A stretch of 64,000 nucleotides of DNA from an uncultured Schlesneria sp. GTDB taxonomy: Bacteria > Planctomycetota > Planctomycetia > Planctomycetales > Planctomycetaceae. Where the stretch lies: NCBI GenBank assembly GCA_903834925.1, contig CAILLA010000058.1, positions 1 through 64,000 of the forward strand, given 5' to 3'. The notes below the pieces were generated by a model. The model ran no database searches and was not told the origin of the DNA. It worked only from the letters and a program-made list of their open reading frames with translations. The translations under genes and the position numbers were made by a program. Below, in pieces: positions 2,904 to 42,919 of this stretch (position 1 is its first letter; every line of letters begins with the position of its first letter).

Positions 2904-2982
2904 CCGTCACTCGCATCATTTTGAATTCAGGGTTTGCCAAATGAAACCGCGACTCCGGCAACGATTGGTTCATTTTCGAGAA

Positions 2983-3050
2983 ATGCTCATCACGCGGAGC
3001 GATGATGGCTACTTTGGTCTAAGGTGAAACCTCGCTGGAGTCATCGGGAA
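2983..3050 (+). repeat. MATLEE-leader repeat, copy 1 (degenerate)
   Basis: This element carries GGAG, then ATGATGGCTACTTTGG, then an immediate stop (GTC TAA). Copy 3 at 37303 matches it beyond this core on both sides. Downstream both have TGA-N2-CCTC-N-CTGGA spacing, and upstream both have CCG-N3-CT-N-CGGCAA. It lies between the two moeA genes. It looks like a decayed copy of the short gene that is intact at 38429-38551. Confidence 0.7.
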
Positions 3051-3082
3051 TGAAGTGTCTGCTCTTTTTGCCGGGCGAAGAG

Positions 3083-3116
3083 CACTGCTTGACCGAAGAC
3101 GGTCAAGCAGTGGCAC
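3083..3116 (-). repeat. Two-hairpin repeat family, partial copy C (perfect 13-bp stem)
   Basis: The sequence forms CACTGCTTGACCG - AAGA - CGGTCAAGCAGTG (stems 3083-3095 and 3100-3112). The 34 bases 3083-3116 are the exact reverse complement of 42801-42834. It lies about 30 bases 3' of the stop of the minus-strand moeA at 3148, so in that gene's orientation it could act as a transcript-end hairpin. Confidence 0.85.
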
Positions 3117-3147
3117 TTTAGTTCAAAAGATTGACTTGGCGCAAGCA

Positions 3148-4398
3148 TCAATACAAAAAAACTTCGACTTCGGCGCCTTCGGGGAATCCTTCGCTGTCGG
3201 AAGGGACGATGACAAATCCGTCGGACCGTGTTGTGGAGCTGAGGATCGACGCTCCGCCGATCGCCATTGGCGTCGCGTCGTTTCCGTTGATTTGAACTCG
3301 TGCGTAATCGACTCGACCGACCGTTGATACCAGTTTGCGTGCCAGACGAACGAGGACTCGGCGATAGGGCCATTCTCGCGAGCGACCACCCATTGCCCGA
3401 ATCGCTCGGCCCGCGAAGAAATCGTATGCACACAGACATGAGACGGGGTTTCCGGGGAGCAGGAACACAAGTCGTCTTTGAAGTCGACCCATTCCAGTCG
3501 GGCTGCTGGGCCGCATGGCGATACCATGGATTGCGACCTCACCCAGTTCGGCAAGCAGTTTCGGTGCAAAGTCCTCCTGGCCGACACTTGACCCTCCGGA
3601 AACGAGAACGATATCAGCCGATTCCAGAAAGGCATGGCGCATCGCGTCCGGTTCATCTCGAACGATTCCGGGGAAAATCACGTCGCCGCCGTCCCGTTCA
3701 ATTAATGCGGCTAGCATCGGTCCGTTGGCATCGGCAATTTGATAATCAATGGGTGTGGTTCCCGCTGGAAGCAGTTCATTACCGGTAATCAGAATTCGCA
3801 CTTTAGGCCGTCGGACGACTGAAAGATGAATGACACCAATGGACGAGATGACTCCGATATCTTGCGGACGCAGCAGTCGGCCCTTTCGAAGGACGATGTC
3901 GCCGTTTCGGACATCCTCGCCAACGGTTCCGACATGTTTTCCCGACGAAACTTCTCCCAGGCTCAACATGATCTCGCCGTCCAGCTCGGTGTTCTCGACC
4001 GGAAGTACGGCATCGGCACCAGCGGGAAGCGGTGCCCCGGTCATGATGCGAACGGCCTGTCCGGTTCCAATCCGTCCCGAATACGGGACGCCGGGCAGGC
4101 AAGTGCCGATCACTTTGAAGGGAAGTCGGTTGTAGGAGGAGGCGCCGTAGGTCTCCTCGCTGTGTAAGGCAAAGCCGTCCATCATCGACCGCGCAAAGCT
4201 GGGGACATCCACGCAACTCGTGACGTCCTGTGCGAGGATACGAGTTGCAGCGTTGCTGGCGCTGATGACTTCGGTACCGAGGTGGTCAAAAACCGGTATC
4301 GCGGAATCGATCCATGCCAAAGCGGCTTCAACCGTGGCGCGATTGGCGAAGCCACGCATGCGGACGTCCGTCGGTGAATGTTCAGGCGTGGAGGGCAT
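3148..4398 (-). CDS. moeA: Molybdopterin molybdenumtransferase MoeA (second, unfused copy)
   Basis: At 416 residues this is normal MoeA length. Motifs in order: MDGFAL at 73-78, the segment VRIMTGAPLPAGADAVLPVE near 115-134, GNELLPAGT, an SGGSSVGQED molybdopterin-binding loop near residue 270, then MRPSSPTGMG and LLPGNPVSCL. It inserts molybdate into molybdopterin-AMP in the last step of cofactor synthesis in the cytoplasm. It lies upstream of the fused moeA on the same strand, with 244 bases between that hold two kinds of repeat, so co-transcription is uncertain. Carrying two different moeA genes may mean that one serves molybdenum and the other tungsten, as proposed for archaeal MoeA paralogues; nothing here proves that. 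Confidence 0.93.
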   Translation of the reverse strand: MPSTPEHSPTDVRMRGFANRATVEAALAWIDSAIPVFDHLGTEVISASNAATRILAQDVTSCVDVPSFARSMMDGFALHSEETYGASSYNRLPFKVIGTCLPGVPYSGRIGTGQAVRIMTGAPLPAGADAVLPVENTELDGEIMLSLGEVSSGKHVGTVGEDVRNGDIVLRKGRLLRPQDIGVISSIGVIHLSVVRRPKVRILITGNELLPAGTTPIDYQIADANGPMLAALIERDGGDVIFPGIVRDEPDAMRHAFLESADIVLVSGGSSVGQEDFAPKLLAELGEVAIHGIAMRPSSPTGMGRLQRRLVFLLPGNPVSCLCAYDFFAGRAIRAMGGRSREWPYRRVLVRLARKLVSTVGRVDYARVQINGNDATPMAIGGASILSSTTRSDGFVIVPSDSEGFPEGAEVEVFLY

Positions 4399-34529: not shown

Positions 34530-36818
34530 TTAAGGCGAGACTGAATACCCGCCGTGAACCATTCGTCTCGTCATCCAGGCTTCGACAGCCAGGCTGGCGA
34601 GAAACACGTAAAGGATCATCCACCAAATCTCGGTTCTTGAACTATCGGCAAACATATTTTTTCGCAGGTCGGGAAGGTCGGGGACGAATTTCATTCGGTC
34701 ATCCTTGGCGAGAACCTCACGCTCGGCTTCCGTTAATGGCGTCAAAACCGACTCGCCTCGATCGAAATTTGTCACGAAGTATTCTGGCCGATTTGGTTCA
34801 TTGGCTTTCAAGATCTTTCGCGTAAATCGATAAACCCCGGGCAATATTGTCGTTCGCAAGCGAACTGCGGGTTCGAACGATCCCTCAATCTTTTCGCCGG
34901 GCAACAGCTTGTTCGCGGGATTCAGAAACTGGTAATCGTCGATTCTTAAATCGGGTGAGACAATCAGGATCAACGGCGAACCAACCTCCAGATTTCGGGA
35001 TGCGGTTGGTGTCGCCAGCGAAAACAGTAACTCGTGCAGAAACGGCACGTAGTCCTGTTTGGCGGGAAGAGTATTCCAATCAGCATCCAGAGACGATGTT
35101 AGTAATGCCGTCACACCGCGACCGTAACGGCGAGTGATTAGCAGCGGATCGCCTGTCGTCAGCCGGGCTTCGACGATCGACGTACCGATTTTCAGTGATG
35201 ATTCTGGATCAAGTTTATCGACAAAAAGTTCGTCGCGATCCTCGTTTGGCAGCATTGAGCCAGCTTTGCCGGCGGCTTCTTTCGGTAACACGACTTTCCA
35301 CCAACGGGACCAGCGAGCGTCACTCAGTGTGCCGCCTCGGTCGGCTCGAAAGGGTTGCAGCCAGTTTTGTTCGAGACTGTTTCCCAACACGCGAACTCCT
35401 CGTTTTTCGTTCCCGTCCTCGGTCGCTGGCTGACCGAGTCGACAGGGGAGCAATCCCTTACCGTCCGCAAATAATTTGCTGCGATAATGATCCTTGTCGA
35501 CCTTGTCACCCAGCGTAAACAACACACCGTGACCGCTCGCCACAAATTGTCGCAGCGCGTCGATGGCCGCGTCATTCAGCGTGGCCACGTTGGCAATGAC
35601 GGCGATCGACATCGGCTTCAGGCGCTCAATCGTCAATTGATCAGGAGTAATCACCGTCGGCTTGATCCACGGTTGTTCGTCACCCGCTGACAATAATGCC
35701 GCATTGGTAAAAAATGTCTCACACTTCGTCGCGTCGAGTTTATGGTCCCCATCAACGAGTAATGCCGGAAGCGATTCTGTGACCGTCACGACAGCGTCAG
35801 CTCGATTGTCGCCGGGTAATGCGTCGTCATCCAGAACCAGGCTGATCAGATGAGACCCCGCCGATTCGAAACGATATTCAAAGTCGACAGTCGTTTCCCC
35901 TTGCGGCTGAAGCTTGATCTGAACACTTTGGTCAGGTAGCCGAAGTTGATCGATCTCGAGATGAACTTTACGAGCAATCGGAGTATCTCCGCCCGAGAAT
36001 TTCACTTTGCTGCTGATTTTGACTGGCACACCAACGATCGCCAATTCACGAGAAAGCTGCAGCCGATCGATTGTGAAATTGGCCGCCTCACCCAACTCGC
36101 CGCCCGATGCATCAATGACCCAGACTCGTGGAGCAATCGGCGACTGGCTGCGCACATCATCAAACCTCGCCCATAGGGTTTCATCCCCACCTTTCCAACT
36201 GAGTGCCTGCAGATCGGTGAAGACAATCACTTCCCGTTGCAGGTTTGTCCCCGACGATAGAAGCTGTACCCCTTTCTGGACGGCTGCAGCCAGATCGGCC
36301 GACCCCGATGGAGCTGCCAGATCATTCAGCGCATCTTTCGCGCGATAAGCATCTCGTGTTGCATCGGGCAATACCACCTGTGGCTGTTCCCGGGCATCGA
36401 TGATCTGGATTGAGTCGCCGGGCAACAGATCACCGAGAAACTCGCGAGCCAATTGCATGGATCGCGAATGAGGCGTCTTCCCATTTCCCAGTGGGTCCCA
36501 GCCCATGCTGTAAGAACCATCGACGATCAGAACGACGTCACGAGACTGGGTCGAGACAAATCCCCCCAGCCACTGGCTGCCGATCCAGGGCCGGGCGAGA
36601 GCGATAGCGATCATCGCCACCAGTCCGATACGGACAAGTAACAGCAGCAGTTCCTCCAGACGAATTTTCCGTTTGGCACTCGGATCGAGTTCCAAAAACT
36701 GCATCGCCCCCCATTCGACCAGATCGTATTTTTTACGACTGAGCAGATGCGCGATCACCGGCAGGGCAATGCCAGCCAGACCCACCAGCATCCAGGGATT
36801 CAGAAATGAACTCAGCAC
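34530..36818 (-). CDS. BatA-like membrane protein with von Willebrand factor A domain
   Basis: 762 residues. The N-terminal BatA segment (NPWMLVGLAGIALPVIAHLL, then KKYDLVEWGAMQFL) and a second helix (RIGLVAMIAIALARPWIG) anchor it. The VWA domain follows at about 94-250, with a metal-dependent adhesion site D-x-S-x-S in VDGSYSMG (D100, S102, S104). A beta-rich part and a C-terminal helix (IWWMILYVFLASLAVEAWMT, then a short tail) complete the layout. Such proteins occur with MoxR ATPases and DUF58 proteins, but none is seen beside it; those genes may lie elsewhere. The function is probably protein folding or complex assembly at the membrane. Confidence 0.87.
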   Translation of the reverse strand: MLSSFLNPWMLVGLAGIALPVIAHLLSRKKYDLVEWGAMQFLELDPSAKRKIRLEELLLLLVRIGLVAMIAIALARPWIGSQWLGGFVSTQSRDVVLIVDGSYSMGWDPLGNGKTPHSRSMQLAREFLGDLLPGDSIQIIDAREQPQVVLPDATRDAYRAKDALNDLAAPSGSADLAAAVQKGVQLLSSGTNLQREVIVFTDLQALSWKGGDETLWARFDDVRSQSPIAPRVWVIDASGGELGEAANFTIDRLQLSRELAIVGVPVKISSKVKFSGGDTPIARKVHLEIDQLRLPDQSVQIKLQPQGETTVDFEYRFESAGSHLISLVLDDDALPGDNRADAVVTVTESLPALLVDGDHKLDATKCETFFTNAALLSAGDEQPWIKPTVITPDQLTIERLKPMSIAVIANVATLNDAAIDALRQFVASGHGVLFTLGDKVDKDHYRSKLFADGKGLLPCRLGQPATEDGNEKRGVRVLGNSLEQNWLQPFRADRGGTLSDARWSRWWKVVLPKEAAGKAGSMLPNEDRDELFVDKLDPESSLKIGTSIVEARLTTGDPLLITRRYGRGVTALLTSSLDADWNTLPAKQDYVPFLHELLFSLATPTASRNLEVGSPLILIVSPDLRIDDYQFLNPANKLLPGEKIEGSFEPAVRLRTTILPGVYRFTRKILKANEPNRPEYFVTNFDRGESVLTPLTEAEREVLAKDDRMKFVPDLPDLRKNMFADSSRTEIWWMILYVFLASLAVEAWMTRRMVHGGYSVSP

Positions 36819-36821
36819 GAT

Positions 36822-37175
36822 TTACTTCAAGGGGTCGGGTGTTCTGATTTCAAAAAATGGCCGCGAAAACGATATGAACTTCGGAAGTCGCGCGTTCGGC
36901 CAATTTTTGAAATCTGAACGCCCGACCCCAGAACAGCGACGCATGTTGTCGGATTTGGCTCCGTACGATTGCCTTGACCGAAACCAACACAGCGATGCCT
37001 TAAGCTTAAGATGACGCATTGCGCCCCTCATTGCCAGTATCAACGCTCTGCGGAAACATGATCGATTAGCATCGGTCATGTAAGTGAGCCAAGCAATGTG
37101 ATTCCTTGAATTGTTCGCGGTTAAAGTCTGACTCAACGAGTCAAGTTTCACGATTTCTTCCAAAGTAGCCATCAT
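36822..37175 (-). CDS. Small hypothetical ORF starting MMATLEEIVK (MATLEE-leader copy 2)
   Basis: 117 codons starting at the repeated ATGATGGCTACTTTG. The first dozen codons (MATLEEIVKLDS) match the short gene at 38429 and keep the frame. The 3' half lies within the inverted repeat at 36831-36929 and is not likely to be native coding sequence. The leader has the same AGGAG as copy 5 and is preceded by about 40 AT-rich bases that could hold a promoter. Whether the protein is made is unclear. Confidence 0.35.
   Translation of the reverse strand: MMATLEEIVKLDSLSQTLTANNSRNHIAWLTYMTDANRSCFRRALILAMRGAMRHLKLKASLCWFRSRQSYGAKSDNMRRCSGVGRSDFKNWPNARLPKFISFSRPFFEIRTPDPLK
36831..36929. repeat. 99-bp imperfect palindrome GGGGTCGGGTGTTC...
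   Basis: Left arm 36831-36862 (GGGGTCGGGTGTTCTGATTT onward) and right arm 36898-36929 (ending CGCCCGACCCC) pair with few mismatches; the centre has a short further inversion (CGCGAA / TTCGGAAGTCGCG). It begins 12 bases upstream of the VWA gene start and would form a large hairpin there. Confidence 0.75.
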
Positions 37176-37198
37176 CGCTCCTGCGTGATGAGCATTTC
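37160..37198 (-). repeat. MATLEE-leader repeat, copy 2
   Basis: On the minus strand: AATGCTCATCACGCAGGAGC, then ATGATGGCTACTTTGG. It differs from the others by one inserted base in the SD (CAGGAG). It is divergent from copy 3, 104 bases away. Confidence 0.8.
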
Positions 37199-37302
37199 AC
37201 GAATGACTTACAATCGACGCTGCGCTATTATTTTAATCAAATTTATCATATACCGGGAAGAACCGAAGCTGCGGCAATGATCGGCGGGCGCTCGATAGAT
37301 GG

Positions 37303-37367
37303 TCATCACGCGGAGCGATGATGGCTACTTTGGTCTGATATGATTCCTCACTGGATTTTTCGCCCGG
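37303..37367 (+). repeat. MATLEE-leader repeat, copy 3 (degenerate)
   Basis: TCATCACGCGGAGCGATGAT, GGCTACTTTGG and then GTC TGA in frame, so the reading stops at once. Similarity with copy 1 continues on both sides. It forms a divergent pair with copy 2 and lies 165 bases before the NYN-like gene. Confidence 0.8.
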
Positions 37368-37531
37368 CGAGAGCGAGTTGCTTGATTCCTCGAATGTTCC
37401 TCTCGACAATCAGAATTTTCTGACGGCTCGAACGCGTTTTGGAATGCTTCACGCTTCCGAGCGGACACATATTGAAATCGCAACCAATCGAACATCGAAT
37501 GGCTCGCGGTTTACAAAAAATATCATCACCC

Positions 37532-38140
37532 ATGTCACAAACCACAACCTATATCCTGATCGACTACGAAAACGTCCAGCCCACCGATCTGGCGGCGATT
37601 CAGAATGGGGCGTTTAAGGTCAAGTTGTTCCTCGGTGCCAACCAAATAAAAATTCCTGTCTCGTTCGCCGTGGCGATTCAGCGGATGGGCGAAAATGCTG
37701 AATATGTGCAATTGGAGTCATCCGGCCCCAACGCCCTCGATTTCCACATTGCCTATTACATTGGTCGGATTTCGGCAGTTGAACCGAAGGCTGCATTTCA
37801 AATCATTTCGAACGATGCAGGATTTGACCCTCTGATCGTGCATTTGAAAGCAAAAGGAATCTCCGTCCAGCGTTCCGTTTCCATATCAAGTGCCGTAGTG
37901 GTTCCCGATCTCGATGCCTGGTTTGAAATCGTGGTTGACCATCTGGCCCGTCAAAATGGGTCAAAGCCGACAAACAAGAAGTCGCTACTGAATTTGATTC
38001 GAACATTGTTCAAGAAAAAACTCGGTGAAGGTGAAATCAATCTTCTTGTGCGGACGCTTTGCGATCGGAAAATCGTCAGAATTGAAGGATCGCGAGTCGG
38101 CTACGAAATTCCTGAGGATGGGAAAGATGTCCCGTTTTAA
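37532..38140 (+). CDS. PIN/NYN-like nuclease-fold protein
   Basis: 203 residues from ATG 37532. YILIDYENVQPTDL near residues 7-20 has the N-terminal acidic site of NYN/PIN-like proteins. LESSGPNALDFHIAYYIGRI and FQIISNDAGFDPLIVHLKAK carry the other acidic positions (DFH, SNDAGFD). These are the expected metal-binding aspartates of an RNase fold. The last 60 residues are helical and basic (KKSLLNLIRTLFKKKLGEGE, NLLVRTLCDRKIVR), which would suit nucleic-acid binding. Substrate is unknown. It is flanked by MATLEE-leader copies at both ends, and the stop lies in a hairpin CCCGTTT-TAATG-AAACGGG (38131-38149). Confidence 0.8.
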   Translation: MSQTTTYILIDYENVQPTDLAAIQNGAFKVKLFLGANQIKIPVSFAVAIQRMGENAEYVQLESSGPNALDFHIAYYIGRISAVEPKAAFQIISNDAGFDPLIVHLKAKGISVQRSVSISSAVVVPDLDAWFEIVVDHLARQNGSKPTNKKSLLNLIRTLFKKKLGEGEINLLVRTLCDRKIVRIEGSRVGYEIPEDGKDVPF

Positions 38141-38269
38141 TGAAACGGGCTGGCAAGCTCAGCAAGGATTGGAAATAAGATAATCGTGCTGGTTGACGGA
38201 ATATCCATCCACGCAGGATAGAAATACCACTGCATCGAAGCAAACTCCAGAGCGGCTTCGCCAAAGATC

Positions 38270-38302
38270 AAAGTAGCCATCATCGCTCCGCGTGATGAGC
38301 AT
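38270..38302 (-). repeat. MATLEE-leader repeat, copy 4
   Basis: On the minus strand: AATGCTCATCACGCGGAGCG, then ATGATGGCTACTTTG. Here the frame runs on as a 48-residue reading MATLIFGEAALEFASMQWYF..., ending at 38137 and touching the NYN-like stop. After TTTG the sequence no longer resembles copy 5. It is divergent from copy 5, 105 bases away. Confidence 0.75.
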
Positions 38303-38407
38303 TGTTCGAGCACCCGTCATATTCCTATCGGCTTGTTTTCAAAAAATGGAATTCAAACGAAGTATTTGTTCCGAAGGTATGGCGACGCTTGAATCGTTTC
38401 CGACACA

Positions 38408-38441
38408 GGCTCATCACGCGGAGCGATGATGGCTACTTTGG
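38408..38441 (+). repeat. MATLEE-leader repeat, copy 5 (start of an intact small gene)
   Basis: GGCTCATCACGCGGAGCGAT followed by GATGGCTACTTTGG. GGAG at 38420-38423 is 5 bases before ATG 38429, and the frame continues into the 40-codon gene listed next. Confidence 0.8.
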
Positions 38442-38551
38442 AAGAATTCGTGAAACGTGGCTCAGCAGTCAAGTTTCAAATCGAAGGACTCCGATACCTT
38501 GGAACACAACTCAAACGACAACTTAATAACGGCAAGTCGAATTCCAGCTGA
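38429..38551 (+). CDS. 40-residue small protein, MATLEEFVKRG
   Basis: A short reading frame too small for usual gene calls: MATLEEFVKRGSAVKFQIEG followed by LRYLGTQLKRQLNNGKSNSS. It has a good GGAG ribosome site at the right distance, a second ATG directly upstream (38426), and helical, charged content with a heptad-like spacing. Its 5' end repeats at four other places in the window, and copies 1 and 3 look like decayed relatives (their GTGAAAC-N3-GCT pattern aligns with codons 8-12). No homologue family is known to me. Confidence 0.5.
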   Translation: MATLEEFVKRGSAVKFQIEGLRYLGTQLKRQLNNGKSNSS

Positions 38552-38553
38552 CT

Positions 38554-39900
38554 TCACAGCGTGTAATCAACCGCCTCGAATCGTGCGCCTTCCGCTTCAG
38601 TCAATTCGCCTCGTCCCGAAACGCTGACCGCTTCCGCAGATAAATCATCAAGATTCATCAGTGCATCGTCGGCACTGTCGGCATGCGCAATCAAGTATGT
38701 CTGAACGGCCGACATTGGCAGCGTTCTTTCTGCCAAACTCTCGGCGAAATAGTCCGCCATCGACGGATCATTGTCTCCGAAAAACCGGACGAATAGTCGA
38801 CGCAACTGTTCTCGTTCCGCATAGTCGATCAGCTCTTTCCTATCGATTCGGCCGGGCCGAATCAATGCAGGATCAAGTCGCTCAATGTGATTCGTTGTCG
38901 CGAACAGAATTCGGCCTTCCCCCGCTGCGACTCCGTCGATCGCGTTCAAAAGACCGCTAAATGTCAACTTGTTGGGCTTATCTTCTGTAGCTTTTCGTTC
39001 GACGAAAACGCAATCGATGTCTTCGATCAAGACGATCGAGTTCACCGGACAGTTGGATAACAACTGGCACAGATCATCATCGTCCAGTGACGAATTGGCG
39101 AGACTCAGGATCGCAATGTCCATCTTCATGGCCGATGCGATGGCCAGCACGGCCGAGCTTTTTCCGGTACCTGGAGGGCCGTAAAGCAGGTAGCCACGTC
39201 GATAGGGAATCCCTCGCTCAACGTACCATTCGCGACGAACGAGAAAACTGCAAACGTCTTCGATCAGGCTTTCCATCAGGCCATCACGCAGCACAACCGA
39301 TTCCGGTGGACGAGGCAACCGCTTCATTTGCTCGTCCCAGGACGAATAGGACGCCCGATGGATCGCCAGACGGTTGTCCCCCGGCGGTAACGCCACGTCC
39401 CTGGCATCCTCAAGAAGTTGCTGAGCGATCTTTCGATCACGGCTGAAAATATGGATGGCGAATGATTCGCGCACGTTGAGTGGCTGAGCCTGACTTCCGT
39501 CAGGCTTTGGACGTTCGCGGTTCAGTATCACAAGTCTGCCACGATAGAAAAAAATGTGCTCGCCCGGCGCAGGCGAAAACAGGATACGCGGGCGGGCATC
39601 CATCGAAGGATCGGCCTGACGCTCGCTGTAGTCGACCGAGACCGTTTTCACCGTCAGGCTGCGAGCACGATCTTTGGCGTAGGTGTGCTGAGCCAGCCAT
39701 TTGTCGATCCATTCGAATGCCGGATCACGGTCCAGAATGTCGATCTCGATCAACCAGCGCCGCCTGAGCCATTGCCAGATTCGGCTGGGAACTTCCCTGA
39801 AGTAAGCGAGCAGACCGCCCCCCAGCATCAGGATCAAGCCTCCACCAAATAATTGGTTGTGTGCCAGTTGGTATTGAATAAATTCCCAGATCGCGTTCAT
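38554..39900 (-). CDS. BCS1-like membrane-anchored AAA ATPase
   Basis: 448 residues from ATG 39900 (a GTG six bases earlier is possible). One membrane helix (about 18-34, FGGGLILMLGGGLLAYF) is followed by a BCS1-type N-terminal domain (about 50-200). Then comes an AAA domain with Walker A YGPPGTGKSSA (about 240-250), Walker B SIVLIEDIDCVF, sensor ATTNH and arginine finger ALIRPGRIDRK. Mitochondrial BCS1 moves the folded Rieske protein across the membrane; the bacterial relatives have no proven substrate. The gene is divergent from ubiX and alone on its strand. Confidence 0.87.
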   Translation of the reverse strand: MNAIWEFIQYQLAHNQLFGGGLILMLGGGLLAYFREVPSRIWQWLRRRWLIEIDILDRDPAFEWIDKWLAQHTYAKDRARSLTVKTVSVDYSERQADPSMDARPRILFSPAPGEHIFFYRGRLVILNRERPKPDGSQAQPLNVRESFAIHIFSRDRKIAQQLLEDARDVALPPGDNRLAIHRASYSSWDEQMKRLPRPPESVVLRDGLMESLIEDVCSFLVRREWYVERGIPYRRGYLLYGPPGTGKSSAVLAIASAMKMDIAILSLANSSLDDDDLCQLLSNCPVNSIVLIEDIDCVFVERKATEDKPNKLTFSGLLNAIDGVAAGEGRILFATTNHIERLDPALIRPGRIDRKELIDYAEREQLRRLFVRFFGDNDPSMADYFAESLAERTLPMSAVQTYLIAHADSADDALMNLDDLSAEAVSVSGRGELTEAEGARFEAVDYTL

Positions 39901-42776: not shown

Positions 42777-42919
42777 TGCATCGTCAATCTTCAGAATCAT
42801 GTGCCACTGCTTGACCGTCTTCGGTCAAGCAGTGGCACTTTGATCACAAGCAGGAGAAGACACTGCTTTTCCGAAGACCCCAAAGCAGTGGCACAGAATC
42901 CTTATTGAGACGTCAAACG
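42774..42919 (+). repeat. Two-hairpin repeat family, copy B
   Basis: It starts at the gcvPB stop (TAGTGCATCGTCAA), then a perfect hairpin with 17-bp stems (42801-42817 and 42822-42838) GTGCCACTGCTTGACCG / CGGTCAAGCAGTGGCAC. A second weaker hairpin follows near 42861-42894 and the tail reads TTATTGAGACGTCAAACG. The order of parts matches copy A at 6555-6716; bases 42801-42834 match copy C exactly in reverse complement. Confidence 0.85.

Follow-up and report, generated by a model that had tools for sequence, protein, structure and literature searches.

The sequence that recurs five times in the 64,000-nucleotide stretch of DNA from an uncultured Schlesneria sp. that was analyzed here (the window), and that an earlier note had taken for the start of a short gene, is very probably a REP. 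The copies occur mostly as REPINs, that is, non-autonomous mobile DNA, probably copied by a RAYT (REP-associated tyrosine transposase) of the type found in related bacteria. The REPINs are inverted doublets of REPs some 153 bp apart, with their GTAG tags outermost. In the mechanism that we propose, a RAYT (an HUH, IS200-like enzyme) would recognize the folded pair of REPs in single-stranded DNA and copy or move the REPIN in trans. In its own genome the REPIN is usually embedded in another palindromic repeat. The resulting composite of about 345 bp has spread there, and the REPIN population may now be without a cognate RAYT.

All five copies of the core are present in the window, each with an exact ATGATGGCTACTTTG, at 3002 (+), 37161 (−), 37318 (+), 38269 (−) and 38426 (+). 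Four of them match the 23-mer CTCATCACGCGGAGCGATGATGG with up to three mismatches, against 0.00 expected from shuffled sequences. The fifth (copy 2) departs from it by the insertion of one base, reading CGCAGGAGCG. The own genome is 9.0 Mb in size, and its assembly is fragmented into 307 contigs. It contains 201 copies of the 15-mer defined in the earlier note (at most one mismatch), 101 forward and 100 reverse, and none of the reversed 15-mer used as control. Exact matches to the core in named genomes come mostly from Schlesneria MAGs, and the remainder from other Planctomycetota and from Verrucomicrobiota (for example Prosthecobacter and Phragmitibacter MAGs). There are 223 REP copies in genome G002, which has more than any other relative.

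On the opposite strand the core reads 5′-GTAG-CCATCA-t-CGC-TCC-GCG-TGATGAGC (full sequence GTAGCCATCATCGCTCCGCGTGATGAGC), a GTAG tag plus an imperfect palindrome, which are the defining features of a REP. Folded as single-stranded DNA (z = −2.9), it gives a hairpin with TCC as its loop and a bulge of one base. The GGAG that had been taken for a ribosome site corresponds to the TCC loop and stem, while the ATGATG that had been taken for start codons is the lower stem. Stem pairs are kept at a level of at least 95% among 300 distinct copies from several genomes. One pair, 7-24, is variable, being A-T in 262 copies, G-C in 24, T-A in six and another combination in eight, so that 292 of the 300 retain pairing. 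Among unique sequences there are 16 double changes at this pair, compared with 3.3 by shuffling (largest shuffle 9). As judged from these sequences, the variation in the stem fits a conserved palindrome and not a codon frame. With its tag, its short imperfect palindrome and its high copy number, the core is a GTAG-type REP.

Copy 1 is a singlet with the exact consensus (2985..3012, − strand), located by the 23-mer match and comparison of copies. The other four form two inverted pairs, copies 2/3 and 4/5, as the earlier note had recognized; the distances between the 28-mers are 107 and 108 bases, where it gave 104 and 105. REPIN 1 (GTAG...CTAC, 37165..37328), defined by its core copies, has an alternative type of spacer. 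Its left REP carries the one-base insertion (37165..37193, +; core match), its right REP lies at 37301..37328 (−; core and 23-mer match), and an arm-A palindrome recognized from the element consensus and locus inspection adjoins it at 37123..37149. Close to this REPIN there is also a long inverted repeat, GGGGTCGGGTGTTCTGATTTCAAAAA ... TTTTTGAAATCTGAACGCCCGACCCC, at 36831-36929, one arm of which has nine more matches elsewhere in the genome. REPIN 2 (GTAG...CTAC, 38273..38436) has the exact consensus in both its left REP (38273..38300, +; 23-mer match and fold) and its right REP (38409..38436, −; 23-mer match). In single-stranded DNA this 164-base doublet folds as a single hairpin, with z = −10.0. 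The GTAG tags are outermost in the doublets and face outward, as they do in REPINs. With inverted REPs at a typical spacing, outer GTAG tags and one hairpin, the doublets are REPINs.

An inverted partner was found for 56 of 72 copies (those with enough upstream DNA). The 36 full elements of the own genome have a common consensus of about 345 bp. In it, GTGCCACTGC and the palindromic arm A are followed by a first REP, some 107 bp of spacer and the REP in inverted orientation, and then by arm B, which contains one more hairpin, and GCAGTGGCAC. The REP-to-REP spacing is identical in 27 of the 36, the doublets being about 153 bp apart. Arm B is part of a dispersed repeat in its own right (repeat 2), and the REPIN is therefore nested in repeat 2. 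The latter is a palindromic sequence of about 100 bp, GTGCCACTGCTTCGGAGTCTTCGGAGAAGCAGTG...CACTGCTTGACCGAAGACGGTCAAGCAGTGGCAC, that is found in tandem at about 120 bp in some places. Its hairpin has 177 matches in the own genome (at most three mismatches), and the REP core is missing from most of the 30 repeat-2 loci inspected. Repeat 2 is present in the window at 42801-42834 and 3083-3116, the second being the arm-B hairpin CACTGCTTGACCGAAGACGGTCAAGCAGTGGCAC (+ strand; repeat search, locus inspection and fold); further loci are L251-L280.

Evidence of mobility comes from the surroundings of copy 1. A segment at 2919..3150 lies between two moeA-like genes, and contains half a REPIN (a single REP) with arm B, as well as the outer end of repeat 2. 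The sequence CATCA is present at both ends of the insert, at 2914-2918 and 3146-3150. The segment is also present in G001, and the filled site, with about 247 bases including the half element between the moeA-like genes, is seen in G000 and G001. In G002 and G005 the site is empty, with the two genes joined by about 15 bases (of the CAC, CGCTCAC and CATATCAATAC types). A blastn search for empty sites among individual loci gave nothing usable; it was the moeA comparison that yielded them. The element is thus present or absent at an orthologous site, and the unit that has moved is a composite half-element. Since the insert includes the end of repeat 2, what moved at this position was the composite, either whole or truncated. 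Being larger than a REP, and a truncated composite, the moeA segment taken alone is no proof of RAYT-mediated REPIN movement.

As regards the transposase, in a first look at the own genome we found ten Y1_Tnp loci, none of which is flanked by the core, and using the RAYTs of relatives as queries we found no RAYT flanked by this REP; as the assembly is in 307 contigs, the missing RAYT may correspond to a gap in it. The nearest RAYT of the own genome, on contig C154, is 58-60% identical and is flanked by another class of REP, GTAGCCYTCTCGCTCCGCCGAGA, which has 65 copies in that genome. In relatives, the core REP does surround a RAYT gene. G040, from a different genus of the family, has a RAYT of 220 residues with an inverted pair of the core REP on either side, GCGGAGCGATGATGGCTACTTTGG included (locus L223). 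The same arrangement is found in G001 (L228) and G002 (L229:1486-2148), whose RAYTs are 93% identical to each other. A Prosthecobacter MAG (L139) also encodes a RAYT (54%), flanked on one side by a core pair and on the other by a lone core. Against the NCBIfam model REP_Tyr_transpos (NF047646) these proteins give E values of about 1e-14 and 52-58 bits, below its 80-bit equivalog cut-off, and on these scores they are relatives of the model family and not equivalogs. Against Pfam Y1_Tnp they score 20-29 bits, where the cut-off is 23. The HUH motif and the catalytic tyrosine are seen as MPNHVHLL and YIANNP/YIADNP in G040 and G002. In the RAYT of G001 (L228:1486-2148) HVQ replaces the HVH (HUH) metal-binding motif of its relatives; its REPs persist, but the enzyme itself may have no activity. 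In a tree of RAYTs, the core-flanked proteins of G001, G002 and G040 cluster with support of 89/88, while that of the own genome joins a second RAYT of G001 (100/99) and the Prosthecobacter protein is unplaced. Most related RAYTs, in the family and the class, have nearby GTAG hairpins with other stems, such as CATCACGC, CATCACTC, CCTGTCGC and CTTCTCGC; these were picked by a script seeking GTAG plus a stem, and are supportive only. By analogy with work on Pseudomonas and E. coli, we infer that a RAYT would act on the core REP. The lack of a core-flanked RAYT in the own genome, the scores below the NCBIfam cut-off and the HVQ of G001 count against this reading.

Could the copies nevertheless be genes? 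The earlier note had envisaged a small protein (MATLEE), a translation leader or a non-autonomous element. A small-protein family that brings along its ribosome site and has been duplicated across the genome would account for a GGAG shortly ahead of ATG ATG, for the open frame in one copy, and for an arm-A consensus frame that is open across the element. We regard it as almost certainly wrong. Among 37 distinct copies with arm A the length of the frame varies between 5 and 117 codons and the stops are scattered, and variability at codon positions 1, 2 and 3 is 0.31, 0.25 and 0.25, with no excess at the third. On the arm-B side a stop follows after six codons in 27 of 33 copies. There is no sign of purifying selection on a conserved reading frame, and the GGAG is part of a hairpin with compensatory changes on both sides. 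The open copy itself, at 38426-38551 (+), is clean as described, with 41 codons where 40 had been counted; it crosses the REP and arm A into host DNA, and its product has no family match in Pfam or NCBIfam. It is a chance opening and not a gene. GTC TAA and GTC TGA are indeed found in copies 1 and 3. Neither is a decayed gene, since the GTCTGA arm is what the element normally has as its second flank. The neighboring gene fares no better as a partner. A gene does lie between the two pairs, and its match to PIN7 (PF18475, 1.2e-29) is much stronger than that to NYN (0.005), to which it had been likened. A link between it and the copies is rejected on the evidence of relatives: this PIN7-type gene is absent from G002 and G001, both of which have many REPs, and present in G010, which has one REP with three mismatches. 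A structured RNA or leader, such as a cis-regulator or terminator copied before or behind genes, would be consistent with strong hairpins showing compensatory changes, and with the intergenic position of all three sites in the window. It is nonetheless highly improbable, because the genes neighboring REP copies are divergent, convergent and co-directed alike, Rfam gives no family at gathering score within 36000-39500, the element is present or absent at the moeA site, and the REP surrounds RAYT genes in relatives. The single Rfam hit, MIR4416 with 22.8 of 70 bits, reflects a chance resemblance to a long hairpin. A secondary role of the REP in mRNA ends is possible, by analogy with the REPs of E. 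coli. Neither the protein nor the leader is supported, and of the three options it is the non-autonomous element that is right.

A more serious competitor is a MITE that an unrelated transposase would mobilize by way of the outer GTGCCACTGC inverted repeats, with the REPs as mere passengers. The consensus of the composite has such outer inverted repeats, repeat 2 is also found without a REPIN, and the insert at moeA includes repeat-2 ends together with a 5-base repeat. Yet the REP pairs around the RAYT of G040, spaced by about 94 bp, have no match to arm A or arm B. Moreover, in the elements of the own genome the REPs are at least 90% conserved and most of the spacer and arms 50-90%; this difference is partly biased by the search pattern, and 17 REP bases that were not selected are exact in 58 of the 72 copies. 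We consider the MITE rather unlikely, and prefer REPINs served by a RAYT. Tentatively, and with more doubt than conviction, we suggest an extension of this reading, whereby a REPIN fixed in a palindromic repeat spread as a composite element of about 345 bp to some 200 copies and persists without its cognate RAYT, perhaps served by a paralogous RAYT that has another REP, with the hairpin loops as TCC landing sites for a third repeat.

That third repeat is MITE-like, about 135 bp in length with ends GAGGTTGTCAGTTTTTGTA...TACAAAAACTGACAACCTC and internal GTAG...CTAC hairpins, and has 29 matches in the own genome. At nearly every locus inspected it sits in the TCC loop of a REP hairpin, with an apparent 3-base duplication of TCC. 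The insertions are in class-1 REPs at L334, L335, L338, L339, L340, L341, L042 and L044, and in another REP class at L333 and L336. They resemble the mobile elements and IS elements that target REPs (Tobes and Pareja, 2006; PMC1525189) in that insertion occurs in the REP palindrome, and differ in that this repeat is short, has no gene and lands in the TCC loop, in REPs of two classes. An unusual REP array was observed in G028 (contig C221, 6204-6371), where five copies of GTAGCCATCATCGCTCCGCGTGATGTCG are arranged head to tail in 35-base steps.

The closest parallel is with the REPINs of Pseudomonas fluorescens SBW25, described with their doublets, hairpins and RAYT neighbors (Bertels and Rainey, 2011; PMC3116915). 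Common to both are inverted doublets of typical spacing, hairpins, hundreds of copies, an extragenic location (here at the three window sites) and the same REP beside a RAYT (here in relatives). In contrast to SBW25, the host is a planctomycete, the REP is CATCA-t-CGC-TCC, the spacing is about 153 bp as against 71 or 110, the REPIN lies within another palindromic repeat, and no cognate RAYT was found in the own genome. GTAG REPs are known in Planctomycetes and Verrucomicrobia, and in Rhodopirellula baltica there are several families of them and numerous genes for tyrosine transposases (PMC3733652). Like the families of R. baltica and Opitutus terrae, the present one has the GTAG tag, a short stem, a short loop, HH dimers and several families per genome (PMC3733652). 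In REPtrons the transposase gene lies between two inverted single REPs (Nunvar et al., 2010; PMC2817692), whereas whole REPIN pairs stand on each side of the RAYT in G001, G002 and G040. In the literature we found no REPINs described for Rhodopirellula under that word, and no repeats described for Schlesneria. The REPIN/RAYT family is an addition to Planctomycetota, probably new and of a kind already described, the comparison with the 24 listed GTAG families (PMC3733652) being by description.

A supposed family of small genes is thus replaced by a described kind of mobile DNA, which avoids false gene calls at up to about 200 sites. The planctomycete family has its REP in common with Verrucomicrobiota. 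In some relatives it has transposase neighbors and in others the population looks orphaned, which offers a natural test of the persistence of REPINs without a RAYT.
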